Shown here in pieces: positions 1,792-55,401 of a stretch of 64,000 nucleotides of DNA (its first letter is position 1; each line of letters starts with the position of its first letter). The notes under the pieces were generated by a model that was given only the letters and a program-made list of their open reading frames with translations, ran no database searches and was not told the origin of the DNA. Source of the DNA: a virus. The DNA lies in IMG/VR virus record IMGVR_UViG_3300025102_007089, positions 1 through 64,000 of that record, one strand, 5' to 3'. The position numbers and the translations under genes were made by a program.

Positions 1792-2322
1792 GTGAATATT
1801 TTTGTAACAGATCATGATCCAGCTTATTCTACAATTAATCTTTGCGATCAGCATGTAAGATCAAAGATGCAGATTGAAGGAGCTATTATGTTAGCTCATG
1901 CTTTTCCTCAAGAAGTATTAGATCATCCATCTACTCCTAGAACATCAACTGGAAAGCCTCGAAGAAGGGGTAAAGGTTATTTTAATCATCAATGTTCTAT
2001 ATGGGCGAGGGAAACAAAAGATAACTTTAAGTGGTTAGTTGATCATACGTTAGAAATGTTTACTGAACGTATGTATAGATGGCCGGACTCAAATGAGCAT
2101 TTTACTAAGACGTTTATTGAGTGGTGTGGTAAAAATATCCATAATACTATAATGGATAATTATGGTTTAACTAATTACGCTTTAGCTATTGGTAAGGATT
2201 GTGAGTGCAGAAAGGTAAAAGGTTTTGATAACCTTTCAACAATTGACAAATATAGAGAGTATATTCGTTGTGATAAACCTTTTGCTACCTGGACGCAGCG
2301 TCGTATACCAGCTTGGTATTAA
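1792..2322 (+). CDS. Conserved marine-myophage protein of unknown function
   Basis: 176 residues from a GTG start. It begins MNIFVTDHDP and carries H-Q-C-S-I-W-A-R near residue 65, a W-L-V-D-H-T-L-E-M segment, several paired cysteines (D-C-E-C near 144) and a C-terminal TPTWY-like ending (IPAWY). This arrangement matches, from memory, a family widespread in T4-like cyanophages whose role is unknown; conserved His, Cys and Trp suggest an enzyme or metal site. Its stop codon shares TTAA with the stop of the convergent gene at 2319. Placement after FolE2 makes a joint early transcript likely. I do not assign a function. Confidence 0.75.
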   Translation: MNIFVTDHDPAYSTINLCDQHVRSKMQIEGAIMLAHAFPQEVLDHPSTPRTSTGKPRRRGKGYFNHQCSIWARETKDNFKWLVDHTLEMFTERMYRWPDSNEHFTKTFIEWCGKNIHNTIMDNYGLTNYALAIGKDCECRKVKGFDNLSTIDKYREYIRCDKPFATWTQRRIPAWY

Positions 2323-2759
2323 ATATCAGCTTCAATATTTTTATGAGCTATATTTTCTGCACTTACGTCAATTAATGCATCGAGCTCATTTTCAATAAAA
2401 TCCTTACCTACAAGAATTTTATATATATTTGAAGTTCTATCTCCTATAGAAAAAGGTACATTTTTAAATTCCTTATTTCCTATTTTAAAGTCAAATTCTA
2501 CCACCGGTCTATCTTCAGTATTACCGGCACCTACGTTAATTGTAATATTATCTTTCTTATCTTTAGTTAATCTTTTATTGTTAACTGTCTTAAAAACTAC
2601 TTTGTTACCTTGTTCTTGTATATCTTCACCGTGAAGTACATTAAATGCTCCATTACCAGAATCTAATTTAGCAGGAATTTTACCTACACCATCTACATCG
2701 AAGAATTCTATTAATCCTACGACACTTTTTTCTTCAAAGTAGTTCTTAAAATTTTTCAT
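2319..2759 (-). CDS. Retropepsin-like aspartic protease (PF05618-like) with capsid-targeting-like leader
   Basis: 146 residues from the ATG at 2759, one base after the upstream stop; a longer in-frame start at 2783 would overlap the upstream gene and hide the MKNFKNYFEE leader shared with neighbours. The body reads like the retropepsin-type 'ATP-dependent zinc protease' family: I-P-A-K-L-D-S-G-N with presumed catalytic Asp33, a central R-P-V-V-E-F strand and a C-terminal Y-K-I-L-V-G-K-D motif. Members are single-domain and would act as dimers. The leader and late-gene setting suggest it is packaged or acts in prohead maturation, in addition to or in place of a gp21-type serine protease, which is not in this window. 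Confidence 0.75.
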   Translation of the reverse strand: MKNFKNYFEEKSVVGLIEFFDVDGVGKIPAKLDSGNGAFNVLHGEDIQEQGNKVVFKTVNNKRLTKDKKDNITINVGAGNTEDRPVVEFDFKIGNKEFKNVPFSIGDRTSNIYKILVGKDFIENELDALIDVSAENIAHKNIEADI

Positions 2760-2760
2760 A

Positions 2761-3138
2761 TTAATCATGTGGGCATTCTTCACCTTCTGGGCATCCGCAT
2801 CCTTTTAAACTTTCATGTCCCATATTATACATACTATCTCCTCCCATTTCTTTAGTATGTTCGTAATCTAACCAATGGTATACTGAGGATAAATAATCAG
2901 CTGCTTTAGTAATTTTTGAAGCAGTCCATCCTTCTAAATCAGGAATACCATCTAACATAGCAGATATTTTTTCTGCATATTTATGAGCTTTTAATAGATC
3001 AGACTTAGCCATATGAATCTCAGAATTATCATGTTCGTGTTCATGTTCAACAGGAGGCTCTTCCTCAACAGCCTGTACAACCACCATACCTGGAGTCATC
3101 ATTTCATTAAGTAAGTTATCGTCTCTTCTATATCTCAT
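2761..3138 (-). CDS. Conserved virion-type protein with His/Glu-rich linker and Cys tail
   Basis: 125 residues. The first 15 include L-L-N-E-M, resembling a prohead-protease site. A His/Glu run (E-H-E-H-E-H-D) near residue 35 precedes a helical domain (KSDLLKAHKYAEKI... then WTASKITKAADYLSSV) typical of a short protein common in marine T4-like phages. The C-terminus G-C-G-C-P-E-G-E-E-C-P-H-D could bind metal. A GATAAATA late promoter lies 5 bases upstream, inside the end of the next gene. Function is unknown; a packaged or head-associated role is inferred. Confidence 0.75.
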   Translation of the reverse strand: MRYRRDDNLLNEMMTPGMVVVQAVEEEPPVEHEHEHDNSEIHMAKSDLLKAHKYAEKISAMLDGIPDLEGWTASKITKAADYLSSVYHWLDYEHTKEMGGDSMYNMGHESLKGCGCPEGEECPHD

Positions 3139-3143
3139 ACTAT

Positions 3144-3151
3144 TATTTATC
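3144..3151 (-). promoter_or_regulatory. Late promoter GATAAATA
   Basis: Minus-strand element 5 bases before the ATG at 3138; it overlaps the stop region of the upstream gene (3147-3809), so it can only add transcription for the downstream genes. Confidence 0.6.
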
Positions 3152-3809
3152 TATTATTCCAGTCTTTCTGCAGAATATTAATAATTGCATCTTTATCTGT
3201 TTCGTTAAGATCTAAGGGCGTAAATCTTTCAACTGCCTCTTCAATGTTACCAACTTCAAGATATTCCTTCATATCTTTTGCTCTTACACCACCTCCTAAT
3301 GCTTTTTCTTGAGCTATAAGTGTTACATGAGGGTATTTATCTTTATTTTCAAAACTTTTGTTACGAGCTGCATCACCCGGTCCGGACCCTATAATAATTT
3401 TTTTATCTGTATTTTCATCTGCAAAGTCATATGAACTCTTTACAGGACTTATAGGAGCAATATTTACCTCTACCGGCTTCCCAGCTTGAGTATATATTTC
3501 CCAAATAGCTTTAGATGCATCTGGAGTTATCCACTCTCTACCTGGTCTGTTTTGTTTTTTACCAATAAATATAACACCTTTATCTGCATCCTTTAAAAGT
3601 TTATTAAACATTTCTAAGTGACCTTTATGTGGTGGCTTAAATCCTCCAGCAAGTAAAGCTACTGTTTCGTTAGCATTCTCTTCTTGCTCAACTCTATCCA
3701 TATACCGCTTAGCTTCCTTCTCTGCTTCCTTCATATGAAACTGAGATATTTCCTCAGACTCAAATCTGGAACTAGGCTGTTGTTCAAAATATTCTTTAAA
3801 TGTTTTCAT
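3147..3809 (-). CDS. Nucleotidylyltransferase-fold protein (HxGH) with capsid-targeting-like leader
   Basis: 220 residues from the ATG at 3809, which overlaps the previous stop as TAATG; a start at 3839 is possible but would bury the leader MKTFKEYFEQ. After a charged helical N-terminus, residues 49-64 (TVALLAGGFKPPHKGH) form the phosphate-binding motif of the cytidylyl/nicotinamide-mononucleotide adenylyl-transferase fold, with His61 and His64 as the HxGH pair. I-S-P-V-K-S-S-Y-D-F further on resembles the second conserved ISxT/R-like motif. Substrate is unknown; NMN, pantetheine phosphate or a cell-surface precursor are all possible. The leader suggests packaging into the head. Confidence 0.8.
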   Translation of the reverse strand: MKTFKEYFEQQPSSRFESEEISQFHMKEAEKEAKRYMDRVEQEENANETVALLAGGFKPPHKGHLEMFNKLLKDADKGVIFIGKKQNRPGREWITPDASKAIWEIYTQAGKPVEVNIAPISPVKSSYDFADENTDKKIIIGSGPGDAARNKSFENKDKYPHVTLIAQEKALGGGVRAKDMKEYLEVGNIEEAVERFTPLDLNETDKDAIINILQKDWNNR

Positions 3810-4309
3810 TATGCTTCTTCCATAGTATCGGGATACCAATCTGGTAAAGGTGCTTCTTGTATCCTATTAGCGTATTCTTTTTTAGCTTCTTCAAAATCTG
3901 TTGATACTTTACCATCAACCATATCTTTTACAAAGCCTAAAGTAGCAGCGTTAGCATAGAGATCACCGCACCTTGCTGTTACTTCTTTTTTAAGCCCATC
4001 ATATATAATACTACCAGTAACATGACCTAAAGTATCTAACATATCTGCAGGTACATCAATATTCATTGTTGAATATACATAATCCCTATGTGCAGCAGGA
4101 AACTCATGAGGTATACTCTCGTCTTTAATATATACAGTATCAAATGGAGGCTCTATATTATTCCAAAGTAACATATTTTCAGTTACCTCATCCGGTTCAC
4201 CAAATTTCTTTATGAGCTTTATTGCGTAATCTCTAGCATCATCAAACTCCCAGCCTTTGAGAGATTCAACTGCACTACCTTCTTCAAAATATTCTTTAAA
4301 TGTTCTCAT
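3809..4309 (-). CDS. Hypothetical protein with capsid-targeting-like leader
   Basis: 166 residues starting MRTFKEYFEEGSAVES, almost identical in its first ten residues to the leaders of the flanking genes. E-E-G at 9-11 and a second acidic C-terminus (DTMEEA) stand out. The body is mixed alpha/beta with W-E-F-D-D-A-R-D-Y-A and a conserved-looking centre (PHEFPAAHRDYVYSTMNIDV). No family is recognised. The gene overlaps both neighbours by a few bases, so it is translated as part of one late operon. Confidence 0.65.
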   Translation of the reverse strand: MRTFKEYFEEGSAVESLKGWEFDDARDYAIKLIKKFGEPDEVTENMLLWNNIEPPFDTVYIKDESIPHEFPAAHRDYVYSTMNIDVPADMLDTLGHVTGSIIYDGLKKEVTARCGDLYANAATLGFVKDMVDGKVSTDFEEAKKEYANRIQEAPLPDWYPDTMEEA

Positions 4310-5520
4310 CGTTTAGTACTTGTTTGACCTCCGCTAAAGTTAGCACGACTAAACTCTAATCTATCTACAAGCTTAACTGCATCACCAGCTTTAGATACAC
4401 TTACATAGCCTTCAGGAGATGTTACTTTTAACGTACCGTCCTCTGCATCTAAGAAATGCTTAGTGTTATATACGGCATTATTATACTTGTTAATAAAGAT
4501 CTGTTTAGCTTGAGAAAGCAGCTTACTTACCTTAAAAATATTTACTATATCATCTTTTTGCTGGTTGAATTCAGCCATTTTCTTCTTAAAACTCTCTTCA
4601 ACTTTAAGTTTACCAGCTTTAGACTTTCTCTTTTCAATTTCTTTAGTCATTCTACCTTTAAACCAATCAACAAAGTTATTAAAAGACTCTTCTGGATTCT
4701 CTAAGAATTTACCTTTTTGAATCTCAGAGTTAGCATATATGTTTAATAAATCAAGAGGTAGATCATTATAATCTACTTTAATAGAGTCAGCAGTTTTAAC
4801 AAAATCCTTAACTTGTTTTGCTTCATCTGTTGTTAGAGTAACTGTTCCAGTAGTATCAGTAAATATAGCATCATCAACCCATACTCCTGGCACTTTTTTA
4901 AGCCCTTTTACATTAATACCATATTGCGGGGGGCTATCTAAATCAGCATACCCTGTATGGAATACAATACCGAATACTGAATTTGCTATTTCACTGCCTA
5001 ATTTTGAATCTTTCTCTACAGCATACTTAATTGTATTAGGTTTAAAAGTAAAATGCTCTACACCATCAATATTTTCTTTGTTAACAGATGATGAATCAAA
5101 CATAAAATCACCTTGAAGAATACCTTTTATACCAAGCTTAGGAAGATACTTAAGAGCTTTCTTTAATTTATCAGCTAAACCTGGCGCATGCCCGTGATTC
5201 ATCTCTATATCATTATCAGTATAGTTAATTTTTGGACCAGTTTTATTAAAAACTGATTTAGTACCTACGAAAAATTTACCAGTATCAGGATGTTTACCAA
5301 CAAACATAGCTGGCGCACCATCCCATTTAACAGAAGTATTAACCTTTCTTTTACTCTTACCTTGTAAATGTGATAATAAGTCAGTTATAAATCCTCTTGC
5401 TGTCTTATAACCACCTTCGCCTTTAGTAAGTACCAGCTCTTCTAAATGAGTAAGGTGTGTATTAGCCTTAGCTTCATTAAGAAGTTCGTATTGTTCAAAA
5501 TATAGTTTAAAGTTTTTCAT
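4306..5520 (-). CDS. KxDG-motif nucleotidyltransferase-like phage protein with capsid-targeting-like leader
   Basis: 404 residues. The leader MKNFKLYFEQYELLNEAKAN has an L-N-E-A site typical of prohead-protease cleavage. Residues 61-75 (NTSVKWDGAPAMFVG) contain Lys65-x-Asp67-Gly68, the nucleotidyl-lysine motif of the DNA/RNA ligase and capping superfamily; F-F-V-G-T-K-S, G-I-L-Q-G-D-F-M-F and G-I-V-F-H-T-G-Y follow in the order expected of further ligase-like motifs. Homologs are common in marine T4-like phages, usually annotated only as hypothetical (DUF6267-type, from memory). A coiled, basic C-terminal half follows. Covalent lysine-AMP chemistry is plausible but unproven. Start and upstream stop overlap as ATGA. 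Confidence 0.75.
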   Translation of the reverse strand: MKNFKLYFEQYELLNEAKANTHLTHLEELVLTKGEGGYKTARGFITDLLSHLQGKSKRKVNTSVKWDGAPAMFVGKHPDTGKFFVGTKSVFNKTGPKINYTDNDIEMNHGHAPGLADKLKKALKYLPKLGIKGILQGDFMFDSSSVNKENIDGVEHFTFKPNTIKYAVEKDSKLGSEIANSVFGIVFHTGYADLDSPPQYGINVKGLKKVPGVWVDDAIFTDTTGTVTLTTDEAKQVKDFVKTADSIKVDYNDLPLDLLNIYANSEIQKGKFLENPEESFNNFVDWFKGRMTKEIEKRKSKAGKLKVEESFKKKMAEFNQQKDDIVNIFKVSKLLSQAKQIFINKYNNAVYNTKHFLDAEDGTLKVTSPEGYVSVSKAGDAVKLVDRLEFSRANFSGGQTSTKR

Positions 5521-6629
5521 ACTAAGAAAAATTCTTTTGCAAAGGCTACTGAGGTATTACTACCCGGGTAGTAAATATACACCCCTTCACCGTCAAATTT
5601 AAATTTAATCATACCTTTTTCAACTGCATTAATTACTGAGCTCAACTGCCCAACATTAACATAATTAGACTTAAAAAAGGTACCTTTGTCCAATTCATCG
5701 GGTTTTGTTTTTCTACCCTGAAATCCTTTTTGATATACAGCTAATAAAATATTAAATCCATGCTGTTCATCTGATTCTCCATCTTTATTACCCTGGTTGC
5801 CATACTGAAAGAGCAATAATGCACCTAAGTAGTCTTTTCTTAGTTCAGGGCTATCGTAATCATAAACCTTTTTAAACGCTTCCGTACTAAATGCTTCTTT
5901 ACATAACTTACTATTAAAATCTTGCGAAGGGTTTATTTGATCTAAATTAATTTCACCTTTAGCTATTCCATTAATTAATTTTCTATCATTAGCAAAACCA
6001 GCTCCTCTAGCACTAATAACCCTACCCATTCCGGTTTTTACTTCAATCTGTAAACCGCTTGGTAATTCTAAATCACCTACTTTACCCTTTCTTGCCTCTG
6101 TTAACACAGATAAAGCTAGTTCACCCGCACCTACACTCACTACTCCTTCTTCGAATTTTCTTACAAATAATTGATTATAAAATTTCTTTTTCTCTTCTTC
6201 TTTTTTCAAGAATGAAAGTTGCGGATAACACACCTTAAATAAATCGACCTCACCCATTAAACCTGATAAATTTTCTCCTAATACATTTAAACCATCCTTA
6301 TTAGATACAAACTCTTTTAATTTACTATAATCGACGCTATAATCTAAAAATAAAAAATATAAAAATTTATTCTGGGTATTAAATCCCGCTTTTGTAGCTA
6401 GTGTATTAATTATTTCAATATCCTCGTTAGACATAAACGAACCCTTTACATTACCTTTAAAATAACCAGCTATTTTTTCTATCTCATCTTTATCTACTTC
6501 TACTTCTTCTACAGTATCATCATCAAATGTAAGAGTTAATTTAGCCTCTCCTAATACCTGTAGATGCTTACGTGGAGGTATATTACCCCCTACTTTCTCT
6601 TTATAGATTTTTTCTAGTGACCACTGCAT
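5517..6629 (-). CDS. Possible PD-(D/E)XK-fold nuclease
   Basis: 370 residues. Residues 168-198 give a plausible nuclease core: G-A-G-E (Glu170), G-D-L-E-L (Asp186) and L-Q-I-E-V-K (Glu196, Lys198), the D-x(n)-E-x-K arrangement of restriction-type nucleases. The N-terminus has V-L-G-E-A near residue 25, a likely prohead-protease cut site. The C-terminal part is rich in aromatic residues and has no recognised domain. It lies in the operon of leader-bearing genes and overlaps the KxDG gene start. The nuclease call rests on the motif alone; an inactive structural relative cannot be excluded. Confidence 0.5.
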   Translation of the reverse strand: MQWSLEKIYKEKVGGNIPPRKHLQVLGEAKLTLTFDDDTVEEVEVDKDEIEKIAGYFKGNVKGSFMSNEDIEIINTLATKAGFNTQNKFLYFLFLDYSVDYSKLKEFVSNKDGLNVLGENLSGLMGEVDLFKVCYPQLSFLKKEEEKKKFYNQLFVRKFEEGVVSVGAGELALSVLTEARKGKVGDLELPSGLQIEVKTGMGRVISARGAGFANDRKLINGIAKGEINLDQINPSQDFNSKLCKEAFSTEAFKKVYDYDSPELRKDYLGALLLFQYGNQGNKDGESDEQHGFNILLAVYQKGFQGRKTKPDELDKGTFFKSNYVNVGQLSSVINAVEKGMIKFKFDGEGVYIYYPGSNTSVAFAKEFFLV

Positions 6630-6631
6630 GA

Positions 6632-6928
6632 TTAAATTTCTTGAAGTTCAGATGCAAATGATTTATTTGAAGATTGTAATATATCTTGTATAGCGTCAGT
6701 AACTTTTTTAGGGTCACTTTGAACAAATTCATTAGATAACGAATTAATCATATTTTCTTCTTCAATACTAGGACTATATGAAAAAGCGAGAGCAGCTAAC
6801 TTAGTAAGATAAATTTCTGCTTCTGCTGTCACCCTTTCAGGTGGTGATTCAACGTCGACTTCAGCATCTACTTCTTCCTGTTCATATAATTTACTGAACC
6901 TATCAAATAATTTAAGTGTTTTATTCAT
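6632..6928 (-). CDS. Small acidic late protein, leader-like N-terminus
   Basis: 98 residues. It starts MNKTLKLFDRFSKLYEQEE, an amphipathic basic-to-acidic leader like those of neighbouring packaged proteins, then a Glu/Val-rich stretch and two helices (EAEIYLTKLAALAF and KVTDAIQDIL). Overlaps the upstream gene by 8 bases. No family recognised; an internal head protein or a core component is inferred from location. Confidence 0.6.
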   Translation of the reverse strand: MNKTLKLFDRFSKLYEQEEVDAEVDVESPPERVTAEAEIYLTKLAALAFSYSPSIEEENMINSLSNEFVQSDPKKVTDAIQDILQSSNKSFASELQEI

Positions 6929-7274
6929 CTCTTTTAGCTAATTGTTGTTTTAATTCTTGAGTTTTATTAATAAATTTTCTAACTCTTTCTTGATCAACTT
7001 GGTTTCTATCCTCTACTGCCTTCTTAGCCTCATCCCCTTTAACATCGCTAATATCTTCAGCCTCTTGATCTTCTGCATCTTCTACATTATCAATACTTAC
7101 TTTATACTTATTACCTTCATCATCCATAATATGTAAAAAATTAGACATTGGTCTATTTTTAACTTTAACACCTTTATCCAATAAAACTCTTAATAGAGTT
7201 AATTTAGCTTTAGTGTTTCTATCTACAGAATCATCAGGGGTATGATCTTCTACTAAGTCAAGAAACTTATCCAT
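6921..7274 (-). CDS. Small charged late protein
   Basis: 117 residues starting MDKFLDLVEDH. The first half is basic (KAKLTLLRVLLDKGVKVKNR), the second is acidic with E-D-A-E-D-Q-E-A-E-D, and the C-terminus is a predicted helix rich in Lys and Gln. A CATAAATA late promoter lies exactly 5 bases before its ATG and overlaps the stop of the upstream gene. Function unknown; a prohead core or internal protein is possible. Confidence 0.65.
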   Translation of the reverse strand: MDKFLDLVEDHTPDDSVDRNTKAKLTLLRVLLDKGVKVKNRPMSNFLHIMDDEGNKYKVSIDNVEDAEDQEAEDISDVKGDEAKKAVEDRNQVDQERVRKFINKTQELKQQLAKRDE

Positions 7275-7279
7275 GAATA

Positions 7280-7287
7280 TATTTATG
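7280..7287 (-). promoter_or_regulatory. Late promoter CATAAATA
   Basis: Minus-strand element 5 bases before the ATG at 7274; it overlaps the TAA stop (7283-7285) of the upstream gene. Confidence 0.65.
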
Positions 7288-7792
7288 TCATAAGAGACAG
7301 TTTTACATTCATATCGTTAAGTAATTCAGCTTCTAAGTGCTTTAATTCGTACTTTTTAAGAAACTTACGAAATTTAGCTAAAGATATGTTAAATTTATCA
7401 GTTATAACGTGGTAATCAGATTCTCTATCACTTACAAACTCATCAAACGTATACTTATCGTATATAATATTAGGAGTTAATGAGTTAAATATTCGTTTTA
7501 CTAAAGATTCTTCTATAGTTTTTTCCGATTCAACCTTATAATAAAAATATTTTTTATACTTCGATGACTTGCAAGCACGTATAACCTCTTTTATTATAAA
7601 ATGAATACCTAATTTGTTCTTATCAGTACGCGAAAGTTTTAAATTATTTTCAGTTATATGAAAAATATACTCATTGAATGACTTAGTTAAGTAATAATTT
7701 AAATTAATTATATCTACATTCCGAACAGGATCATAGAAATTACTGTTTTCTTTTACCAATTCGGAGGTTGATAATTCCGTTATAGTAGTCAT
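7283..7792 (-). CDS. Hypothetical late-operon protein
   Basis: 169 residues, rich in Asn, Tyr, Lys and Ile, with helices typical of a small DNA- or protein-binding module (ITDKFNISLAKFRKFLKKY near residue 130 could be a helix-turn-helix, weakly). No leader-type N-terminus. Its first 53 bases overlap the end of the GIY-YIG gene in another frame, an unusually long overlap for this genome. No family recognised. Confidence 0.6.
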   Translation of the reverse strand: MTTITELSTSELVKENSNFYDPVRNVDIINLNYYLTKSFNEYIFHITENNLKLSRTDKNKLGIHFIIKEVIRACKSSKYKKYFYYKVESEKTIEESLVKRIFNSLTPNIIYDKYTFDEFVSDRESDYHVITDKFNISLAKFRKFLKKYELKHLEAELLNDMNVKLSLMT

Positions 7793-8141
7793 CTCGAGTT
7801 AATACTTCCTCTTCAAATTGTAACTTAGCTTCATAATAACTCAACTCCCATTTTGAATCACACCATCTAAGTATTTCAAACTTAAAACTATCCATACCTA
7901 ATGATTCAAGATCTTTATTAAGCTCATTTGATGAGGAAGTATAGGTTTTCCAATCTGTTTCTATTTTTTGATGGCGCTTATTCTTCTTACCCTTTAAAGG
8001 AGGACGCTTTCTAATAGATTGACATTGCTTCTTACCAATATACTTCTTATCATTAGTAAGATTAGTTATCTTATAAATGAAACCGTAAGGTAGGTCTGCG
8101 TTTTCTTCTAGAACCCCCTCCCAATGACCTAAATCTACCAC
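7740..8141 (-). CDS. GIY-YIG family nuclease
   Basis: 133 residues from GTG at 8141. Residues 20-37 (GFIYKITNLTNDKKYIGK) carry the G-[FI]-[IY]-Y ... K-Y-I-G core of GIY-YIG nucleases; a basic stretch (KRPPLKGKKNKRHQK) follows, and E-A-K-L-Q-F-E-E-E-V includes a candidate metal-binding Glu. Length fits a free-standing phage nuclease, either a homing-type enzyme or one degrading host DNA as T4 EndoII does. The gene is locked into the late operon by overlaps at both ends, which argues against a recently inserted homing gene. Confidence 0.8.
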   Translation of the reverse strand: MVDLGHWEGVLEENADLPYGFIYKITNLTNDKKYIGKKQCQSIRKRPPLKGKKNKRHQKIETDWKTYTSSSNELNKDLESLGMDSFKFEILRWCDSKWELSYYEAKLQFEEEVLTRDDYYNGIINLRIGKRKQ

Positions 8142-8602
8142 TTTCTACAAGACCAATACCTAGCTTTAGTCTTTGGCCCGGGATTATCGCAATTATGTCT
8201 AGCTCTGAATGATTTACGAGCTTTTGGATTACTCTTACGAATTTTCATAGTCTTCTCACCTTTTCTTTTAGCAGAAGTACCTCCATGACCGAAGTTTACC
8301 TTCTTTACATTACCAGTTTTAGGATCCTTAACGTATACTTTAAACTTCTTAACGTCACCTCTAGTAGGCTTGTTGAGCTTTACTTTTCTTCCTCTATATT
8401 CTGCATCTTCTTCTGGATCCTCTTCATCAGATCGTGCAGTATAATGTTTTGGATTCATTCGGAATTTAGGGCCCCCTGGTCCATCGGCACCAGCATCTCC
8501 TTTTCTTAACTTACCTTGTGAGTTATAATGCTTTCCTTTAGCAGCTTTTTGAGGATACTCAGTTCTTTCTAATAACTCTCTTACTAAATCATCAAATTCC
8601 AT
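8135..8602 (-). CDS. Basic phage protein with conserved ARHNCDNPGPKTKARYWSC tail
   Basis: 155 residues, highly basic. The N-terminus MEFDDLVRELLERTEY matches the short leader pattern M-x-F-D-x-L-V-x-x-L-L of the two genes downstream. The centre KKFKVYVKDPKTGNVKKVNFG and the C-terminus KSFRARHNCDNPGPKTKAR form a module I recall from many unrelated phages, often without function. The two cysteines and lysine-rich nature suggest a DNA-binding internal head protein. Late promoter CATAAATA is 5 bases upstream of the ATG. Confidence 0.75.
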   Translation of the reverse strand: MEFDDLVRELLERTEYPQKAAKGKHYNSQGKLRKGDAGADGPGGPKFRMNPKHYTARSDEEDPEEDAEYRGRKVKLNKPTRGDVKKFKVYVKDPKTGNVKKVNFGHGGTSAKRKGEKTMKIRKSNPKARKSFRARHNCDNPGPKTKARYWSCRKW

Positions 8603-8607
8603 AATAA

Positions 8608-8615
8608 TATTTATG
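8608..8615 (-). promoter_or_regulatory. Late promoter CATAAATA
   Basis: Minus-strand element 5 bases before the ATG at 8602. Confidence 0.65.
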
Positions 8616-8616
8616 C

Positions 8617-9141
8617 TTAACAGTGATAATTTAAATAACGTTGAAGAGCTTTAGCATAATGAGTGCCTTTATTTTTAAGCTTACCTTTAGCTCCTCGTAC
8701 CTTACTGCAAGAGAGACTACCTAGCCTACTTTTAAGTATACCAGGTTTTACTGGCTTATGAATATTTTTCTTCTCAGCATCTTCTTCCCTCATACGTTTT
8801 GTTTTTTTCTTACTAGCTTCTTTTTTCCTAGTAATATATTTAAAAGCAGCACTTAAACTCTTTTTCTTCTTAGGGTCCTTTACCCTGCCTTTAGCTGCTC
8901 TCACTCTTTGATGTATTAAATTAATTATTTGAGATTGTCTAGCATGCGACTTACTTTTAAATGAAGCTTTATTAAGAGTTTCTCTTATATCAGAAACAGA
9001 ACTAAATTTTACACTTACCGTATCACTTGGATTCTCATCAGTATATAATCTTCTACCCGATCCTTTCGGCTTTTTACCAGTACCTTTTTTAGGATCGCGC
9101 TTCTCTAAATATAAATTTACTAAATTATTAAACTCACTCAT
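8617..9141 (-). CDS. Lysine-rich internal-type protein
   Basis: 174 residues from the ATG at 9141, which overlaps the upstream stop as ATGA; a longer start at 9165 would lie inside the upstream gene. It opens MSEFNNLVNLYLEKRDP, paralogous to the leader of the next gene (MSEFDRLVEHYLNEA). The body is very basic (K-D-P-K-K-K-K-S-L-S-A-A-F-K and a KKEASKKKTKRMREED stretch) and ends with cysteines. It looks like a nucleic-acid-condensing head protein; function not known. Confidence 0.7.
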   Translation of the reverse strand: MSEFNNLVNLYLEKRDPKKGTGKKPKGSGRRLYTDENPSDTVSVKFSSVSDIRETLNKASFKSKSHARQSQIINLIHQRVRAAKGRVKDPKKKKSLSAAFKYITRKKEASKKKTKRMREEDAEKKNIHKPVKPGILKSRLGSLSCSKVRGAKGKLKNKGTHYAKALQRYLNYHC

Positions 9142-9422
9142 TTCTTTTTCTTTTTCTTCTTCCAACTAACACGCTTTGGACCCTTTTTCTTGTACATTTT
9201 TCCCTTTATACTCTTACAGGCTGCTTTAGTAGGTCGACATGCTGGGTAACTACCTCCAGATTTCTTAGATTTACGACCACAAGGACCACCAGTCTTACAA
9301 TTTACCCACCCCTTAAACTTCTTACCTGTTTTAGGGTCAGTACCACCTCTTTTAAACCATTGACGTAATGAGTCACTAGCTTCATTAAGATAGTGCTCTA
9401 CTAACCTATCAAACTCGCTCAT
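9138..9422 (-). CDS. Basic Cys-containing protein (DUF5872-like) with protease-site leader
   Basis: 94 residues from the ATG at 9422 (ATGA overlap with the upstream stop). The leader MSEFDRLVEHYLNEASD has an L-N-E-A cut site. The rest, SLRQWFKRGGTDPKTGKKF then G-W-V-N-C-K-T-G-G-P-C-G-R-K and Y-P-A-C-R-P-T-K-A-A-C, is a conserved module that I match from memory to DUF5872 in phages and giant viruses; four cysteines could bind zinc. Ends in seven lysines. A packaged DNA-associated protein is inferred. Confidence 0.7.
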   Translation of the reverse strand: MSEFDRLVEHYLNEASDSLRQWFKRGGTDPKTGKKFKGWVNCKTGGPCGRKSKKSGGSYPACRPTKAACKSIKGKMYKKKGPKRVSWKKKKKKK

Positions 9423-10150
9423 TTTTTCTTCCAAATTTTTCCTTTTCTACATCTAACTATAGCACCAGACTTATAAGCAGAAGTTTTTTTTCCATATACT
9501 GAATCAGCTTTCCTTTTACATCTATCCTCTGCTTCTTCTTCTTTATACCCCTTCTTCTTATAATCTTCAATTTCCTTTTTATTACCAGGAGGTAACTTTA
9601 CCCCTAACTTCCCATCTGGACTTCTTAACTTTACATGCTTTGCAAACTCTTTTTCAACTTTATCAGCATATTTTTTCGAAAACTTTTGCTTTACTTCATT
9701 ATTTTCTTCATCTTCAGCTTTATCAACATGCATAACAATCACTGTATCTTCATCTACTCCGTACTCTTTAGTACCATCACCCATATCATCCCACTCACCA
9801 GAGATACAATCTTGAACGTCAACTCCAGCATGATTACAAGCGTCTTCTAAAGAGTCAAACGTTTTGTCTGTATGCATAATTTGACCATGTTGTCCTCCTA
9901 CTGATCCTACGGAAAATTTAATGTTAGATTCTTCATTCTCCGGAAACATACGTTTTTGAACTCCTTTCTTCTTTTTCCCTAATGGCTTAGCTAGTCTAGC
10001 ATCTCCTGGTGTATTAGTATACTGCTTACCGCCACCCTCATCGTTCACATTCCGCATATGGGTTGATGGACCATCACCAAAAGCACCAGTACCTACATCC
10101 TCGTTAATTGATTTATAAAAATATTTAGCAAATTTTGAAGTAGAATTCAT
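9419..10150 (-). CDS. Late protein with basic KxGKIWK C-terminal module
   Basis: 243 residues. The N-terminus MNSTSKFAKYFYKSINEDVG is leader-like with I-N-E-D as a possible cut site. A Gly-rich stretch, an acidic beta domain (about residues 80-150) and a C-terminal basic module (CKRKADSVYGKKTSAYKSG ... V-R-C-R-K-G-K-I-W) follow; the last module recurs in small basic proteins of many marine phages. First gene of the late operon running to 8617, with a TATAAATA promoter 8 bases upstream. Packaged or structural role inferred. Confidence 0.7.
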   Translation of the reverse strand: MNSTSKFAKYFYKSINEDVGTGAFGDGPSTHMRNVNDEGGGKQYTNTPGDARLAKPLGKKKKGVQKRMFPENEESNIKFSVGSVGGQHGQIMHTDKTFDSLEDACNHAGVDVQDCISGEWDDMGDGTKEYGVDEDTVIVMHVDKAEDEENNEVKQKFSKKYADKVEKEFAKHVKLRSPDGKLGVKLPPGNKKEIEDYKKKGYKEEEAEDRCKRKADSVYGKKTSAYKSGAIVRCRKGKIWKKK

Positions 10151-10158
10151 ACTACTTA

Positions 10159-10168
10159 TATTTATAAT
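10159..10168. promoter_or_regulatory. Overlapping divergent promoters: late TATAAATA (-) and TATAAT (+)
   Basis: On the minus strand TATAAATA (10166-10159) precedes the ATG at 10150 by 8 bases; on the plus strand TATAAT (10163-10168) precedes the GTG at 10175 by 6 bases. The two elements share four base pairs, so late and early polymerase cannot occupy both at once. Confidence 0.6.
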
Positions 10169-10174
10169 ATATAT

Positions 10175-10570
10175 GTGGAATTACTTCAACAATACATAGA
10201 AGAAATAGGTAAAGATTTAGTTTTAGATGATTTTAACCTAAAAGAATCACAATTAAGACTTCCTTCTCGTAAGCATTACTGGGTAGCGAGACTTATTGAA
10301 GCTAAAGTTGATCGTAATAAATTACTAGCTAAAAAGAAATCTCTTAAAAAAGAAGTGGTTAAGCAAGTAGTACGTGATTCTCCTATAAAGATTACTCAAT
10401 CTGCCGCTGAATCAGCTGCTGAAAGTCATTCAAGTTTAACTAAGCTTAATGATGCTATAAAAGAAAGAGATATGATAATTGAATATCTTGAAAAGGTAGA
10501 GAAAATTATGTCTTCTATGGGATATGAAATAAAAAATATTGTTGAGATACAAAAAATGGAACAATTATAA
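10175..10570 (+). CDS. uvsY: UvsY-like recombination mediator
   Basis: 131 residues from GTG at 10175, close to T4 UvsY (137). It is predicted all-helical, with a conserved-looking W-V-A-R-L-I-E-A-K-V-D segment near residue 36, a Lys-rich stretch (NKLLAKKKSLKKEVVKQVV) and a C-terminal helix ending in the M-G-Y-E-I-K-N-I pattern like the SRGFAIKHIQ of T4. UvsY loads UvsX onto gp32-coated single strands. It is immediately upstream of UvsW, as in T4, which supports the call despite low sequence identity. Confidence 0.75.
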   Translation: MELLQQYIEEIGKDLVLDDFNLKESQLRLPSRKHYWVARLIEAKVDRNKLLAKKKSLKKEVVKQVVRDSPIKITQSAAESAAESHSSLTKLNDAIKERDMIIEYLEKVEKIMSSMGYEIKNIVEIQKMEQL

Positions 10571-20681: not shown

Positions 20682-20689
20682 TATAAATA
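20682..20689 (+). promoter_or_regulatory. TATAAATA promoter of hsp20
   Basis: TATAAATA 8 bases before the ATG at 20698; perfect late consensus on the plus strand, so hsp20 is predicted to be expressed late. Confidence 0.6.
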
Positions 20690-21676: not shown

Positions 21677-22786
21677 ATGGATAAAGATGTTTTAAAAGCT
21701 TTAGATGATATTGATAAGGTTAATCCTTTTGCTACGTATCTAAGTGATAGTACTTTAAGTAGAGTTGGTACTTGGATTGATACCGGATCCTACGTATTAA
21801 ATGCTATTATTTCTGGATCAATTCACGGTGGTATACCTAAAGGTCGTGTAACTATGCTAGCAGGAGAATCTATGACGGGTAAGTCGTTATTCGTTCAAAA
21901 GATTCTAGCTAAAGCTCAAGAAGAAGGTTTAATTCCAGTAATTTTTGATACTGAAAATGCTATCGACCCTGAAGGTGCTGAAAGACTTGGCTTAGATATT
22001 AGTAAAGTAAAGTATGTACCTTGTACTAGTATCGAGCAAGCTAGAAACTCTCTATATAAGTTCCTTATGTCTGTTAAAGAAAAGGGTCTTGAAGGTAAAT
22101 TTATTGTAGCTATTGATTCTTTAGCTAACTTGCAATCTGAATTGGAACTTTCTCGTATGAGCAAAGATAGTACTTCATCAGATATGGGTACTAAAGCTCG
22201 AGCTATGAAAACATTAATGCAAACTTGTACTAATTTAGGTTCAGTAACTCAAACAACTATTCTTTGTACTAATCATGTTTATGATGATCCTACTGCTCTC
22301 TTTCCTTCTATTGAAAAGAATATGCCTGGTGGAAAGTCATGTATCTATTTACCTTCTGTAACTGTTCAACTAGCTCGTAAGCCTATTAAAGATGACGGAG
22401 GTAAAACTGTAGATGGCGAACTAGCTGTAGGTCAGAAAAAGTACTCAGGTATTATTATTAGAGCCTTAACTCGTAAGAATAGATTTATTAAGCAATATTT
22501 AGAAGGTGAAATGTACTTATCATTTTCTTCTGGTCTAGATAGGTATTATGGATTAGTTGATTTAGCTGTTGGTGTTGGTGCTGTAATTCAAACTGGAGCT
22601 ACTTATCAGCTTGAAGATGGTACTAAGTTAGGCTATTATAAGAATTGGAGAAAAGATACTAAGCTTTGGGAAGAGACTATCTTACCTAAAGTAGAAGAAC
22701 GTATTAAAAATGAATGGTCTTATAGTAATAACGAAGATGAAATCCCCGAAGAAGTAGAAGATGAAGAAATTAGTATTGACGCTTAG
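21677..22786 (+). CDS. uvsX: UvsX RecA-like strand-exchange protein
   Basis: 369 residues (T4 UvsX 391). Walker A is G-E-S-M-T-G-K-S at 64-71; V-I-F-D-T-E-N-A near 92, F-I-V-A-I-D-S-L-A-N-L (Walker B) near 141, and the DNA-binding loop region with Q-T-T-I-L-C-T-N-H near 190. The C-terminus is acidic (NNEDEIPEEVEDEE), as in UvsX. It catalyses homologous pairing with UvsY and gp32. Its last 26 bases overlap the queC start, tying 7-deazaguanine synthesis to recombination gene expression. Confidence 0.95.
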   Translation: MDKDVLKALDDIDKVNPFATYLSDSTLSRVGTWIDTGSYVLNAIISGSIHGGIPKGRVTMLAGESMTGKSLFVQKILAKAQEEGLIPVIFDTENAIDPEGAERLGLDISKVKYVPCTSIEQARNSLYKFLMSVKEKGLEGKFIVAIDSLANLQSELELSRMSKDSTSSDMGTKARAMKTLMQTCTNLGSVTQTTILCTNHVYDDPTALFPSIEKNMPGGKSCIYLPSVTVQLARKPIKDDGGKTVDGELAVGQKKYSGIIIRALTRKNRFIKQYLEGEMYLSFSSGLDRYYGLVDLAVGVGAVIQTGATYQLEDGTKLGYYKNWRKDTKLWEETILPKVEERIKNEWSYSNNEDEIPEEVEDEEISIDA

Positions 22787-23516
22787 TGGCGGAATGGACT
22801 CGTCTGTGCTGTTGTATATGGCGCAGGATAGAGGTTTTGAAGAAGTACATACAGTAACTTTTGATTATGGTCAAAGGCATAAACGTGAACTTAGTTGTGT
22901 TGATAAACAACTACATAACTTTGCTGAACGTTATGGTGATTGGGTAAACTTGAAAGTAACTAATAAAGTACTTGATGTAAAATATATTAAAGATATTGCA
23001 CCTACTTCTTCTTTAACTAATAAGGATATAGATAATCCTGATATTAGTAAAATGGCAGGAGATGCGCAGCCCGTCTCATATGTACCGTTTAGAAACTTAA
23101 TGTTTCTATCTATTTGCTCTGCTTATGCAGAAAGCGTTGGTGCAGATACAGTATGGTATGGAGCTGCTCTGGTAGATTCTCTAGCTGGTTACTGGGATGG
23201 GAGTGAAGAGTTTGTTGATATGGTAAACAAAGTAACCGATCTTAATAGAGAGAATAGGATCAACATAGAAGCTCCTTTACTTGAAATGACAAAACCTGAT
23301 ATTATTAAAGAAGGTATTAGACTTGGTGTTAAGTATAAAGATACTTGGACTTGTTACTCTGATAGAGAGGATGGTTTAGCTGATGCTACTACACCTTCAA
23401 GTAGTATGAGAGTAAAAGGATTTGTAGACGCAGGTTATAAAGATCCTATTACTTACATTCAACAAGATAAGTTGAATAAGCTCTATGACGAGAATAATTG
23501 CAGAGAATGTGCTTAA
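22761..23516 (+). CDS. queC: QueC-family 7-deazaguanine enzyme lacking zinc cysteines
   Basis: 251 residues. The PP-loop S-G-G-M-D-S-S at 9-15 and F-D-Y-G-Q-R-H at 34-40 are diagnostic; V-P-F-R-N-L-M-F-L near 108 is standard. QueC makes preQ0 from 7-carboxy-7-deazaguanine using ATP and ammonia. The usual C-terminal zinc site (one Cys in T-C-Y, then C-x2-C-x2-C) keeps only Cys198; positions 206-215 read LADATTPSSS instead. The Y-P-D-C-R substrate loop is Y-W-D-G-S. Two cysteines at 247 and 250 might form another site. Either an altered reaction or a zinc-free fold is implied. Confidence 0.88.
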   Translation: MKKLVLTLSGGMDSSVLLYMAQDRGFEEVHTVTFDYGQRHKRELSCVDKQLHNFAERYGDWVNLKVTNKVLDVKYIKDIAPTSSLTNKDIDNPDISKMAGDAQPVSYVPFRNLMFLSICSAYAESVGADTVWYGAALVDSLAGYWDGSEEFVDMVNKVTDLNRENRINIEAPLLEMTKPDIIKEGIRLGVKYKDTWTCYSDREDGLADATTPSSSMRVKGFVDAGYKDPITYIQQDKLNKLYDENNCRECA

Positions 23517-24676
23517 AGACCGTAACGTCTAAGTTCCTCTAACTGCCATTGAGTTTTAGGCTTATATCTTTCTTTAAAGGATTGATTTTTGACTTCAGTC
23601 TTTTTATTTCTTTTGTCTGAAGCTGTCTGCTCAGTCAAATAAGCAGCAGTTGAGGTTTCGGAAACTTCTAAATGGGGTTGAGCTACGTACTCTTTACTTT
23701 CTTTATTCATAGCTTGTTTAATTTTCTTTCTCCTATTTAAAAGGTATTCATCAGTCTTATCTTCATCTCCATCATTATCAATATCTCCGTCTTCTTTACC
23801 TACAGGATCCATTTCATCTTCTGCTACCGCGGCAGCAGCTAAAGCTTTTTGCTGCTCTTCATAATCATCACCCGTCACATCACTAGCATCTCTTGCCATG
23901 GCGGCAATATGTGGATCTTCTTGATCAGACTTTACAGCAACTTGCGCTTTTGCTGGTTTGATGATAGTTGATAAATAAGCTGCAATTTTTTCATAACCTG
24001 GCTCATTTGCTATTTGTCTTACAAAACTCTCAAGCTGTTTAACTGTGTTAATTTTTTCTGCGTAATCAACAACTTGATCTAAAGCTTGATCACTAATATC
24101 AAATCCTTCATCTCCTAAGTTTTGCTTAATATCATTTAAAACTCTATTCATTAATCCCTTAACAAGCATTACTTCATCTATATCAGCACCAATTTCATCT
24201 GATAACTTATCCGCAAGTTCATCAGGATCAGCTGCTTTAATTTGCTCTACTTCTTGTGGAGTAAACTCCCCTCTCTTTTGATCGTTTTTTAATGCAAAGG
24301 CAATTAGAGCATCGCTTTCAGCTTCAATATACTTATCAAGCTTTTCAGCTCTATCATCTAAAAAATAATCCGGATCCTTATCACTTAAATATTTTATAAT
24401 TTGAGTAGAAGAAGTACTCATACGATATAATTTTTCTGCTTCTGCATCATTTATAACATCTAAATTATATAACGCTCTAATCATCATACGATTTTTTAAT
24501 CTTGACTGTGAAGGAGCTGGTCTACCCTCAGGGTCACGGTATGCTTTTAATTTAGGGCCTAACCCTTTACGCACCATTTGCTTATATCGAGAAAGAGCAT
24601 CTTTTTCTTCGAGAATTTCTGCTCTGTTGATTAAATCATTAAAGCTATTAATATTAGTTATATCAAAGGAACTCAT
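23513..24676 (-). CDS. Large acidic virion-type protein with Asp-rich repeat
   Basis: 387 residues, mostly helical and acidic. Residues near 300-330 (KEDGDIDNDGDEDKTDEYL followed by LNRRKKIKQAM) form a D-x-D-x-D-G calcium-binding-like motif plus basic helix that recurs in marine T4-like phage virion proteins. The N-terminus ends E-I-L-E-E, a possible prohead-protease site, and the C-terminal quarter again has L-T-E-Q. TATAAATA late promoter 6 bases upstream. Its stop shares TTAA with the queC stop. It is a lone late gene inside the early block; internal head or core role inferred. Confidence 0.7.
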   Translation of the reverse strand: MSSFDITNINSFNDLINRAEILEEKDALSRYKQMVRKGLGPKLKAYRDPEGRPAPSQSRLKNRMMIRALYNLDVINDAEAEKLYRMSTSSTQIIKYLSDKDPDYFLDDRAEKLDKYIEAESDALIAFALKNDQKRGEFTPQEVEQIKAADPDELADKLSDEIGADIDEVMLVKGLMNRVLNDIKQNLGDEGFDISDQALDQVVDYAEKINTVKQLESFVRQIANEPGYEKIAAYLSTIIKPAKAQVAVKSDQEDPHIAAMARDASDVTGDDYEEQQKALAAAAVAEDEMDPVGKEDGDIDNDGDEDKTDEYLLNRRKKIKQAMNKESKEYVAQPHLEVSETSTAAYLTEQTASDKRNKKTEVKNQSFKERYKPKTQWQLEELRRYGL

Positions 24677-24690
24677 ATAATATATTTATA
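24676..24690. promoter_or_regulatory. Overlapping divergent promoters
   Basis: Minus-strand TATAAATA (24690-24683) lies 6 bases before the ATG at 24676. The plus strand carries TATAAT (24676-24681), 12 bases before the ATG at 24694. Late and early promoters face apart within 15 bp. Confidence 0.55.
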
Positions 24691-34420: not shown

Positions 34421-34838
34421 ATTGAGGATTACCTGTCTGTGCTAAATACCCCTTAAAAGATTCTGTAACACCTGCAAGTTCAGTAGCTACCCTTGAAATT
34501 TTTCTCTGTTCTGATTGTTTCATTCTATCAAAGACAGTATCTGGCTCTGCATTAGCTAATTTCTGTTGAATTGAATCAGGCTCTTCACCATTAAGATAAT
34601 CTAAGAATTCTTCCATCTTACCAATCCATCCTCTCAATTCGTCCTTCATAGCCTCATTTCTCTCAGCTACAGCTGATGCTGCTCTTACAGAAGGATCATC
34701 TTCACTTACCTCTACATCTAGATCAACGTCAAATTCTTCAGGGTTAGTATCCTGATCTAACGAATTTTCAAAAGCTTCTTTTTCATCATCATCTTGTTCT
34801 TTTAGTACAGTAAAAAATCTCTTTTCAAATTTAGTCAT
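34407..34838 (-). CDS. Acidic late protein with leader-like N-terminus
   Basis: 143 residues: MTKFEKRFFTVLKEQDDDE, basic then acidic, like the leaders of the 2-10 kb genes, with L-K-E as a possible protease site. Acidic middle (N-P-E-E-F-D-V-D-L-D-V-E-V-S-E-D-D) and a helical C-terminal half. CATAAATA lies 5 bases upstream. Likely internal head or scaffold component; family not recognised. Confidence 0.65.
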   Translation of the reverse strand: MTKFEKRFFTVLKEQDDDEKEAFENSLDQDTNPEEFDVDLDVEVSEDDPSVRAASAVAERNEAMKDELRGWIGKMEEFLDYLNGEEPDSIQQKLANAEPDTVFDRMKQSEQRKISRVATELAGVTESFKGYLAQTGNPQFKYV

Positions 34839-54232: not shown

Positions 54233-54253
54233 TATTTATAGATTTAATAAATA
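54233..54253. promoter_or_regulatory. Divergent late promoters TATAAATA (-) and AATAAATA (+)
   Basis: Minus-strand TATAAATA (54240-54233) is 12 bases from the ATG at 54220; plus-strand AATAAATA (54246-54253) is 5 bases from the ATG at 54259. Confidence 0.6.
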
Positions 54254-54258
54254 ATTAT

Positions 54259-54789
54259 ATGTCTAAACAACACAGAAATTTCGGTAAAGATATTCACCAA
54301 CTAAACGAGACGTACAACGAGATGTTGAACGGAGCGCATATGTTTCAAAATACAGGTAATCCTCAAGCTGCAGCTGATAGTATGAAGGAAGAAGATAGAC
54401 CATTTTCTCCTAGTCACGGTGCACAAGATAAGATTCCATTTGAAGATAACGAAGATGATAAAGGTATTGATCATCTTAAGCATGCTTTAAAGATGCTCGG
54501 TAAGGCTAAGCTTATGAAGCATCTCGAAGAGATGGAAGAGGATATCGAAGATGAAGAGTTTAATTTTAAAGGTGGTGATATTGAACACGACTGAGCTTCT
54601 CACATTAAACATCCTCAGTTTGGGGAGTCAGTCAAGAAAGTCCTTCACCATAGCTTAACTTCAGCAGGCGTTATTGAAGAATATTATGTTGAACATAACG
54701 GTAAATTAGCAAAAGTACTTGCTGAAGAAGTTACAGTAGTTCAATTAAATGAGCATGGTGGTAGCGGTAAGAAGAAGAAAAAGAAATAG
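54259..54789 (+). CDS. Late virion-type protein interrupted by in-frame TGA (54592-54594)
   Basis: The frame opens at the ATG at 54259 and meets TGA after 111 residues (end ...G-D-I-E-H-D). The same frame then continues without a stop for 64 more codons, A-S-H-I-K-H-P-Q-F-G-E-S to a Lys-rich end and TAG at 54789. The second part holds no ATG, GTG or TTG in frame. The first part is acidic and helical (HLKHALKMLGKAKLMKHLEE), the second has V-K-K-V-L-H-H-S-L and E-Y-Y-V-E-H. The stretch is coding-like throughout, so stop-codon readthrough, a recent nonsense mutation or a sequence error must explain it. Confidence 0.65.
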
Positions 54790-54822: not shown

Positions 54823-55401
54823 ATGGCTAAAGAAAAGAAGTTTGTAAAGCTCTTTGAAAATTATATGCGTAGATTTGAACGCGGCGGCTTTTTAGTAGGC
54901 GACGTTTTTAAGTTTAATGATGACTTTAAGAGTCATGACGCATATAAAGGTTTAGGAGATAACATTAAAGAGCTTATAGATGACATGATTGAATCAGGTC
55001 TTCATATTAGAGTTGTTAATATAAAAGATACAGACCCAGCTCGTTATCCTTCAAATGATCAAACTTCTTCTCTTAAAACAGTTTTAGACATAGCCTTAGA
55101 TACCGGTGGAGGTCGTTTTTCTCATTATTGTTCTGTACCCTGTGGGTTAGGTCAACCTGTTCAATATGCTCCAAATTTATTACCTATTCCTGACGCTATG
55201 AGACGTAAGGATAATGTTAATATTAAACCTGAAGAAGCAGAAGAGGATAAAGATAATATTCAAAATAAGACAGACAGGGGTAATGGTGAGCTGAGTAATA
55301 CTGAAAGATCTTTACCTAAGGACAATACCCAAATTCCATCACAGCCAGCTACCCCATCTCAAGAAGTAAATTCTTATACTAAGCAGTATATCCCTAGTTA
55401 G
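54823..55401 (+). CDS. Conserved marine T4-like virion protein
   Basis: 192 residues. K-K-F-V-K-L-F-E-N-Y-M-R-R-F-E-R-G-G-F-L-V-G-D near 5-27, then L-G-D-N-I-K-E-L and D-T-G-G-G-R-F-S-H near 92 and L-P-I-P-D-A-M-R-R-K near 118, is the pattern of a protein I recall as conserved in cyanophage T4-like genomes. The C-terminal 60 residues are a disordered, charged Gln/Thr/Ser/Pro tail. Late promoter at 54810. Structural role inferred. Confidence 0.7.
   Translation: MAKEKKFVKLFENYMRRFERGGFLVGDVFKFNDDFKSHDAYKGLGDNIKELIDDMIESGLHIRVVNIKDTDPARYPSNDQTSSLKTVLDIALDTGGGRFSHYCSVPCGLGQPVQYAPNLLPIPDAMRRKDNVNIKPEEAEEDKDNIQNKTDRGNGELSNTERSLPKDNTQIPSQPATPSQEVNSYTKQYIPS

Follow-up and report, generated by a model that had tools for sequence, protein, structure and literature searches.

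The late operon and its N-terminal leaders

The stretch of DNA analysed here (the window, 64,000 nt) forms part of a T4-like virus record of 80.6 kb in which head genes are encoded too. The virus is an uncultured, marine, distant relative of T4; a megablast search of cultured phages with the first 25 kb gave no match. Most of the 13 genes of a minus-strand operon open with N-termini that resemble packaging leaders. The operon and the leaders found in it and elsewhere in the window are as follows.

2319–10150, minus: operon of 13 close-set or overlapping genes (ORF map; orthologous clusters in relatives)
10159–10166, minus: TATAAATA, T4-type late promoter box, 8 bp upstream of the operon's first gene
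10100–10150, minus: leader MNSTSKFAKYFYKSINE, class A', of the 9419–10150 protein (orthologues MESRGRFEQLFFKVLKEN, MESMGKFEKIFYKLLEN)
9381–9422, minus: leader MSEFDRLVEHYLNE, class B, followed by ASDSLRQWFKRGG, of a very basic protein
9103–9141, minus: leader MSEFNNLVNLYLE, class B; the protein is basic (pI 10.5)
8567–8602, minus: leader MEFDDLVRELLE, class B; elsewhere the same mature domain has a class A (L005) or class C (G001:167166) leader
7740–8141, minus: SegE-like GIY-YIG endonuclease (Pfam PF19835, E = 2.4e-33), N-terminus MVDLGHWEGVLEEN, leader uncertain
7248–7274, minus: leader-like MDKFLDLVE of the 6921–7274 protein, moderate confidence (orthologues M[SN][KR]FL.L[VIL]E[ED]N)
6881–6928, minus: leader MNKTLKLFDRFSKLYE of the 6632–6928 protein (orthologues MKTLKLIEQYKALLEQ and alike)
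6546–6629, minus: long leader MQWSLEKIYKEKVGGNIPPRKHLQVLGE; the protein is nuclease-like, and E28 lies in one of 12 invariant columns
5473–5520, minus: leader MKNFKLYFEQYELLNE, class A, on the DUF6267 protein; all 41 distinct leaders close with [LI]xE
4306–5520, minus: DUF6267 protein (PF19782, E = 2.7e-97) with ligase-like KxDG and EGxV motifs in invariant columns
4280–4309, minus: leader MRTFKEYFEE, class A
3780–3809, minus: leader MKTFKEYFEQ, class A; the protein is cytidylyltransferase-like (PF01467 just under cut-off; PHROG cytidyltransferase)
3103–3138, minus: degenerate class C leader MRYRRDDNLLNE, gene 2761–3138 (orthologues [LM].EAY..)
2730–2759, minus: leader MKNFKNYFEE, class A, of an aspartyl-protease-like protein; T4 IPIII register with E10
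639–674, minus: leader MRKLSHKEVLTE; the protein extends past the window's left end
24605–24676, minus: leader-like MSSFDITNINSFNDLINRAEILEE, with TATAAATA 6 bp upstream
34797–34838, minus: leader MTKFEKRFFTVLKE, class A'
54259–54309, plus: class C leader MSKQHRNFGKDIHQLNE, then TYNEML

The late promoter is conserved in three genomes, the 8-bp spacing being kept before the orthologues in G001 and G002. Chance occurrence of TATAAATA sites was rejected on position; their number is not raised above chance.

The original prediction held that unrelated proteins here share two types of short leader, and both types are present on the minus strand where they had been placed: MKNFKNYFEE (2759), MKTFKEYFEQ (3809), MRTFKEYFEE (4309) and MKNFKLYFEQ (5520), and then MEFDDLVREL (8602), MSEFNNLVNL (9141) and MSEFDRLVEH (9422). 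The further leader-like N-termini at 674, 6928, 10150 and 34838 were likewise found, as were strings resembling T4 cut sites (LLNEA at 5520, VLGEA at 6629, YLNEA at 9422, LTEG at 674). Leaders at 24676, 54259 and G000:71281 are additional. In the cyanophage S-SCSM1, one virion protein matches residues 277–343 of the 24676 protein, and the G002 orthologue of 34838 resembles the leader of an orthologue of the 10150 gene (score 39).

These propeptide-like N-termini span ∼10–19 residues and are common to unrelated proteins. When 87 proteins, with starts taken at the first ATG, were compared all against all, six pairs of N-terminal 10-mers scored at least 32, compared with two and two in internal windows; five of the six are type-A pairs between otherwise unrelated proteins. 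Under column permutation that preserves N-terminal composition, the stricter type-A motif gave p = 0.0008 in the window and 0.0002 and 0.0042 in two relatives; for aromatics at positions 4 and 7 taken alone, the value in the window was no better than p = 0.11. Four leader-class patterns, partly fitted to the same sequences, matched 12 times among 91 proteins (one match, UvsY at 10175, looks false) against ∼0.5 after shuffling.

The T4 leader cited in the original prediction is correct, IPII and IPIII reading MKTYQEFIAEA (cut at E|A), and IPI (MKTFKEFTST...) is closer still: the type A pattern, MK[TN]FK.YFE, is almost its MKTFKEF. In the T4 capsid-targeting sequence, mutagenesis links residues 4 and 7 to targeting, and residues 8 and 10 serve processing (PMC9026906). 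Aromatics occupy positions 4 and 7 in the class A leaders at 2759, 3809, 4309 and 5520; classes B and C are off this register.

Cleavage motif, prohead protease and proposed cargo

A T4-type prohead protease is encoded in the same record (Peptidase_S77, PF03420, E = 1.5e-32) and shares the GEL.HP and SSR motifs with T4 gp21; a search for Peptidase_S78 gave no match. Cleavage by gp21 in T4 follows L/I-x-E (PMC9026906), and the DUF6267 leaders end by this rule. Among the 41 distinct leaders that precede KANTHLTHLEE, P1 is Glu and P3 is Leu or Ile in all 41, and P1′ is Ala in 30. P1 Glu is also kept in 9 of 10 sequences of the nuclease-like protein, in 24 of 24 distinct in-frame orthologues of the protease-like protein (E10), and before ASDSL in 9 of 9 distinct orthologues of the 9422 protein, though their leaders are unlike. 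E9 of the cytidylyltransferase-like protein (3809) is retained in 20 of 21 orthologues, and [LIM]x[EA][AS]Y occurs in 25 of 31 distinct relatives of the 2761–3138 protein. More broadly, [LI]xE[AGSN] falls within residues 6–29 in 29.1 of 253 families, as against 12–19 in internal windows, and an unbiased homology-boundary test gave a modest excess (44 versus 30.6 expected). At 3809 and 4309 the type-A leaders have x-F-E only; because they lack a canonical L/I-x-E, they may stay uncleaved or use a relaxed site.

In the structure model of the nuclease-like protein, residues 18–28 are unordered and order begins at E28; in that of the DUF6267 protein, pLDDT is below 50 at residues 1–23. Invariant DUF6267 columns include K65, D67, G68, E370, G371, V373 and K383, which could represent motif I KxDG and the downstream EGxV plus Lys of the covalent nucleotidyltransferase/ligase superfamily. 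Its best Foldseek match was not significant (E = 0.35), nor was hhalign against T4 RnlB. Fold searches with the nuclease-like protein and PDB sequence searches gave no significant match, and the aspartyl-protease-like assignment (2759) rests on a weak PF05618 match (E = 4.9e-05). PADLOC found no relation to defence systems except weak matches of the GIY-YIG protein.

Exchange of leaders and virion proteomes of relatives

Leaders are modular. One mature domain bears a class A, B or C leader depending on the phage, and the first ∼36 residues of this domain are identical in L005 and G001. Where DUF6267 occurs in fusions, its own leader is lost and a leader sits at the N-terminus of the fusion. 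These natural swaps and fusions point towards a leader that would suffice to package the protein fused to it.

In cyanophages, similar leaders occur on virion-detected proteins. By published mass spectrometry, the virion proteins of S-CREM2 include gp6 (MKDFDSFLEE), gp13 (MKDLHSFLTE), gp14 (MKRFDAFLTE), gp154 (MKNFSSFLTEA) and gp12 (RFASFMAEA); those of S-SCSM1 include proteins with MKSFLQFLKEA and the class C LSEAYAAVY, and those of S-SZBM1 a cytidylyltransferase with MRFRQFIIEA. The virion-detected cytidylyltransferases of all three phages carry such leaders. Among S-CREM2 non-structural proteins, a T4-register leader, by a motif widened after viewing, marks 4 of 13 virion-detected but 0 of 165 undetected proteins (p = 1.8e-5); with the motif fixed beforehand the counts are 3 of 13 and 4 of 165 (p = 0.009), and the stricter pre-set type-A motif has no match in this phage. 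On some of the non-structural proteins detected in S-CREM2 and S-SCSM1 virions no leader can be recognised, and a leader-bearing S-SCSM1 ORF (MKTFKQFMSE) went undetected. Virion-detected examples number one for class C and none for class B. These proteomes inform on presence in the virion, not on cleavage, and the S-CREM2 authors allow for contaminants in CsCl-purified virions.

Could the likeness reflect only descent or composition, through N-termini that AT-rich early codons make rich in Lys, Phe and Glu, or through recent copying of leader DNA from one gene to its neighbour, with no targeting role? Identical leader residues use identical codons in 74 of 94 cases against 61.4 expected, and some leader DNA is therefore common by descent. 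Yet the motif exceeds a composition-preserving permutation, the terminal Glu stays fixed while leader sequence and length vary, leaders are swapped, and leaders occur in virion proteins of distant cyanophages, so that this explanation appears extremely improbable. Nor is it at all likely that the leaders dock proteins to another late-stage complex (tail, baseplate, membrane or replisome) outside the head. Amphipathic short N-termini can suit many partners, but the leader ends fit the prohead-protease rule, the T4 IPI leader is nearly the same, and leader-bearing S-CREM2 enzymes were detected in virions.

A predicted packaged proteome in marine T4-like phages

The shared N-termini are thus very probably T4-like capsid-targeting propeptides, best read as forming several classes that can replace one another and that carry a cargo rich in enzymes. 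The original prediction of capsid targeting gains from the protease, the terminal Glu of the cleavage motif, the modularity of the leaders and the late promoter, all observed at the sequence level, and from the link to S-CREM2 virions; for this phage we infer docking, cleavage, packaging and injection. Late transcription of the operon would start from the TATAAATA promoter. A short, aromatic, probably helical leader would dock each cargo onto the prohead core, the gp21-type protease would cut after the leader-ending Glu to free the mature protein in the head, and the cargo would then be injected with the DNA. Proposed cargoes are very basic proteins, the GIY-YIG nuclease, and nucleotidyltransferase-like, nuclease-like and protease-like proteins. 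Taken together, the sequence evidence strongly suggests that the operon proteins enter the virus head and reach the host together with the DNA.

A related but unlikely reading accepts targeting to the prohead core and takes the cargo to be scaffold or core components with a role in assembly only and no injection. In T4, gp21 also cuts gp22, gp67 and gp68, which belong to the core (PMC9026906), and the set here includes some small, acidic proteins of unknown function. Several mature parts are instead enzyme-like (GIY-YIG, cytidylyltransferase-like, protease-like), and T4 internal proteins are injected (PMC9026906, PMC12373910).

The system resembles T4 IPI, IPII and IPIII in its leader (MKTFKEY against MKTFKEF of IPI), the 4/7/10 register, the length of 10–19 residues and the L/I-x-E end, in unrelated mature parts and in the presence of a prohead protease (gp21, Peptidase_S77). 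Unlike the single T4 class, several leader classes exist here and are exchanged on one cargo domain, and the predicted cargoes are far more numerous and mostly enzyme-like or very basic. S-CREM2, S-SCSM1 and S-SZBM1 (PMC10665884, PMC9602691, PMC9146016) similarly have leaders of the MKxFxxFLxE type on enzymes, cytidylyltransferases among them, there in purified virions; the accessible text of these papers gives no mention of the leaders. DUF6267 has no report as a virion protein: unlike the protein here, its homologues S-CREM2 gp87 and S-SZBM1 141 are leaderless and, in the same text, not reported in the virion. The T-even ip loci, as summarised in a later paper, also hold genes recognised by a common signal with diverse mature parts, whose products are injected anti-restriction proteins (Repoila et al. 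1994, cited in PMC12373910); those coliphages are near T4, unlike this distant, uncultured marine phage. In the giant phages SPN3US and phiKZ, propeptides of head ejection proteins are removed by a gp21-related protease (PMC9026906), but cleavage motifs and cargo differ.

It is an evenly balanced prospect that marine T4-like phages use several interchangeable packaging tags (classes A, A', B and C, besides a long MQWSLE form), which different prohead-core partners might read, so that N-termini alone would predict a large injected enzyme arsenal. With such a rule, the unexplained non-structural proteins seen in virion proteomes of cyanophages would become predicted cargo, and naturally swapped tags offer material to study how proteins are addressed to the virus head. 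The rule would also allow a test, from sequence, for proteins that may be delivered by marine T4-like phages as infection begins, a class that in T4 disarms restriction.

Leader signal in the genome and its relatives

The original prediction held that unrelated proteins of this T4-like virus open with capsid-targeting-like leaders, and every leader that it named is present in the sequence. Among 87 proteins compared, the top N-terminal likenesses between unrelated proteins were type-A leaders; such high-scoring pairs were fewer when internal windows of these proteins were compared. A stricter type-A motif was seen three times against 0.20 expected (p=0.0008, column permutation preserving N-terminal composition), and the aromatic pair alone (positions 4 and 7) fell short of significance within the window (p=0.11, column permutation). 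Patterns for four leader classes, partly derived from the same sequences on which they were counted, matched the N-termini of 12 of 91 proteins here, 13/187 in G001 and 14/238 in G002, with roughly 0.5 to 1 matches after shuffling. One match, the UvsY gene at 10175, is likely false. The protein at 54823-55401 has MAKEKKFVKLFENY, with L.E kept there in relatives (KFVKLHESY), and by its sequence is perhaps one further leader protein.

G001 (170.9 kb) and G002 (196.9 kb) are long relatives that were read in stretches; 80 additional DUF6267 loci were also retrieved. The IMG/VR record totals 80,613 bases, and the part beyond bases 1-64000, read as L001, encodes a T4-like terminase, portal (Portal_T4, E=7e-105), head maturation protease (Peptidase_S77, E=1.5e-32), putative scaffold protein and the beginning of gp23 (Gp23, E=9e-32). 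Megablast of the window's first 25 kb found zero matches to cultured phages. A GTP cyclohydrolase, folE2 by Pfam (727-1770), and a QueC-like protein (22761-23516) suggest 7-deazaguanine metabolism.

Predicted cargo and late expression

Predicted cargo in this phage
4306-5520 (-): DUF6267 protein
leader 2730-2759: aspartyl-protease-like protein, weak family match
leader 3780-3809: cytidylyltransferase-like protein, weak family match
leader 6546-6629: nuclease-like protein, named only from an invariant E-x-K motif
also: GIY-YIG nuclease, SegE-like
also: basic proteins, pI 10-10.5

In the DUF6267 protein, which also has a helical insert, KxDG, EGxV and K are invariant and resemble covalent-nucleotidyltransferase motifs I, IV and V; fold and profile searches gave no significant match to back these ligase-like motifs. 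In Pelagibacter phage HTVC008M, a zeta-toxin-like kinase lies two genes past DUF6267 (L105:13673-14335), and further N-termini of that cluster look leader-like, e.g. MLSFTGYSNLSEA.

The T4 late-promoter box TATAAATA is not raised in total number. It lies ≤40 bp upstream of a start codon in 7/18 cases here (0.4 expected), 12/27 in G002 and 7/28 in G001. A box stands 8 bp upstream of the first gene (10150) of the 13-gene operon, and both orthologues of that gene are preceded by one too; others lie upstream of leader genes at 24676 and G000:71281 in the same phage.

TATAAATA boxes lying 5-12 bp upstream of a start codon
Phage under study (G000): 10159-10166, 24683-24690, 20682-20689, 54233-54240
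L001: 8469-8476, 9437-9444

Such spacing, seen in all three genomes, implies that late mRNAs have hardly any 5′ untranslated region. A late-sigma-factor homologue is encoded in the window, and late expression would be in keeping with head assembly.

Leader ends and exchange

T4 IPIII begins MKTYQEFIAEA and is cut after E10; IPI begins MKTFKEFTSTTTPVSTITEA and is cut after E19. T4 internal-protein propeptides are 10-19 residues long (PMC9026906). DUF6267 leaders vary in sequence and length, and all 41 distinct forms end in L/I-any residue-Glu, usually followed by Ala, immediately N-terminal to an invariant KANTHLTHLEE. In the protease-like family E10, the IPIII register, is kept in 24/24 orthologues in frame. 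A leader-end Glu occurs in 9/9 ASDSL and 9/10 nuclease-like proteins, and E9 in 20/21 of the cytidylyltransferase-like family, whose leader end is without canonical L/I-x-E. Family-weighted, [LI]xE[AGSN] within residues 6-29 occurs in 29.1 of 253 families versus 12.0-18.7 in internal windows; an unbiased homology-boundary test gave a modest excess (44 sites, 30.6 expected).

Locus L005 and G001:167166 share an identical mature domain, EAKEAPKGKHYDSAGRLRSGDADADGRGGPKYRSDP, with different leaders: MKSFKYYFF precedes it in one, MNKNAKEKELLEEAYASIYL in the other. A near-identical version in L061 follows MQFDELVKQIL. At least four dissimilar leaders, each ending in Glu, precede the ASDSLRQWFKRGG domain. 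In fusions that carry DUF6267 at their C-terminal end (e.g. L071, L075-L081), the DUF6267 part lacks its own leader, and a leader stands at the N-terminus of the whole fusion, e.g. MKTLGHDIIEQMLTE before S. Low-confidence AlphaFold stretches hold the leaders (DUF6267 residues 1-23; nuclease-like protein 18-28). Identical codons at shared leader residues are in slight excess over expectation, so leaders probably spread partly via DNA copying between genes.

Virion proteomes and proposed loading

Table 3 of the S-CREM2 virion proteome (PMC10665884) gives 13 detected non-structural or unknown proteins outside the structural block, 5 with leader-like N-termini.

S-CREM2 virion-protein N-termini
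MKDFDSFLEE: SAM lyase
MKDLHSFLTE
MKRFDAFLTE: kinase
MKNFSSFLTEA: cytidylyltransferase
...RFASFMAEA: gp12 (L108:7704-10313), annotated Cas9-like nuclease, reported from purified virions

A T4-register motif, widened after viewing of these sequences, matched 4/13 detected versus 0/165 undetected proteins (p=1.8e-5); a looser motif set in advance matched 3/13 versus 4/165 (p=0.009), and a stricter pre-set motif had zero matches in S-CREM2. S-SCSM1 virion proteins with leaders include NMNAT (MKSFLQFLKEA) and MDSKTFNSLSEAYAAVY, the sole class C match among 282 S-SCSM1 ORFs, and the S-SZBM1 virion cytidylyltransferase begins MRFRQFIIEA. A leader-bearing 106-aa ORF of S-SCSM1 at 44215 is undetected, and the leaderless DUF6267 proteins S-CREM2 gp87 and S-SZBM1 141 are unreported in virions. 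The proteome papers warn that such proteins are possibly purification carry-over.

CTS loading of varied proteins by T4-like phages has already been proposed (PMC9026906), and in T-even phages the CTS signal has served to find ip genes (PMC12373910). Judged against open-licence papers, and as far as those searched show, several exchangeable leader classes, the enzyme-rich cargo of uncultured marine phages and the tie to cyanophage virion proteomes are new. IPI-IPIII have only the leader in common, and the type IV restriction enzyme blocked differs from one to the next (PMC12373910); they are the T4 precedent for the leader-directed docking, cleavage and injection proposed here. Most likely, leaders in this phage would attach cargo to the prohead core, the prohead protease gp21 would then remove them by cutting, and the freed cargo would be packaged and then injected.
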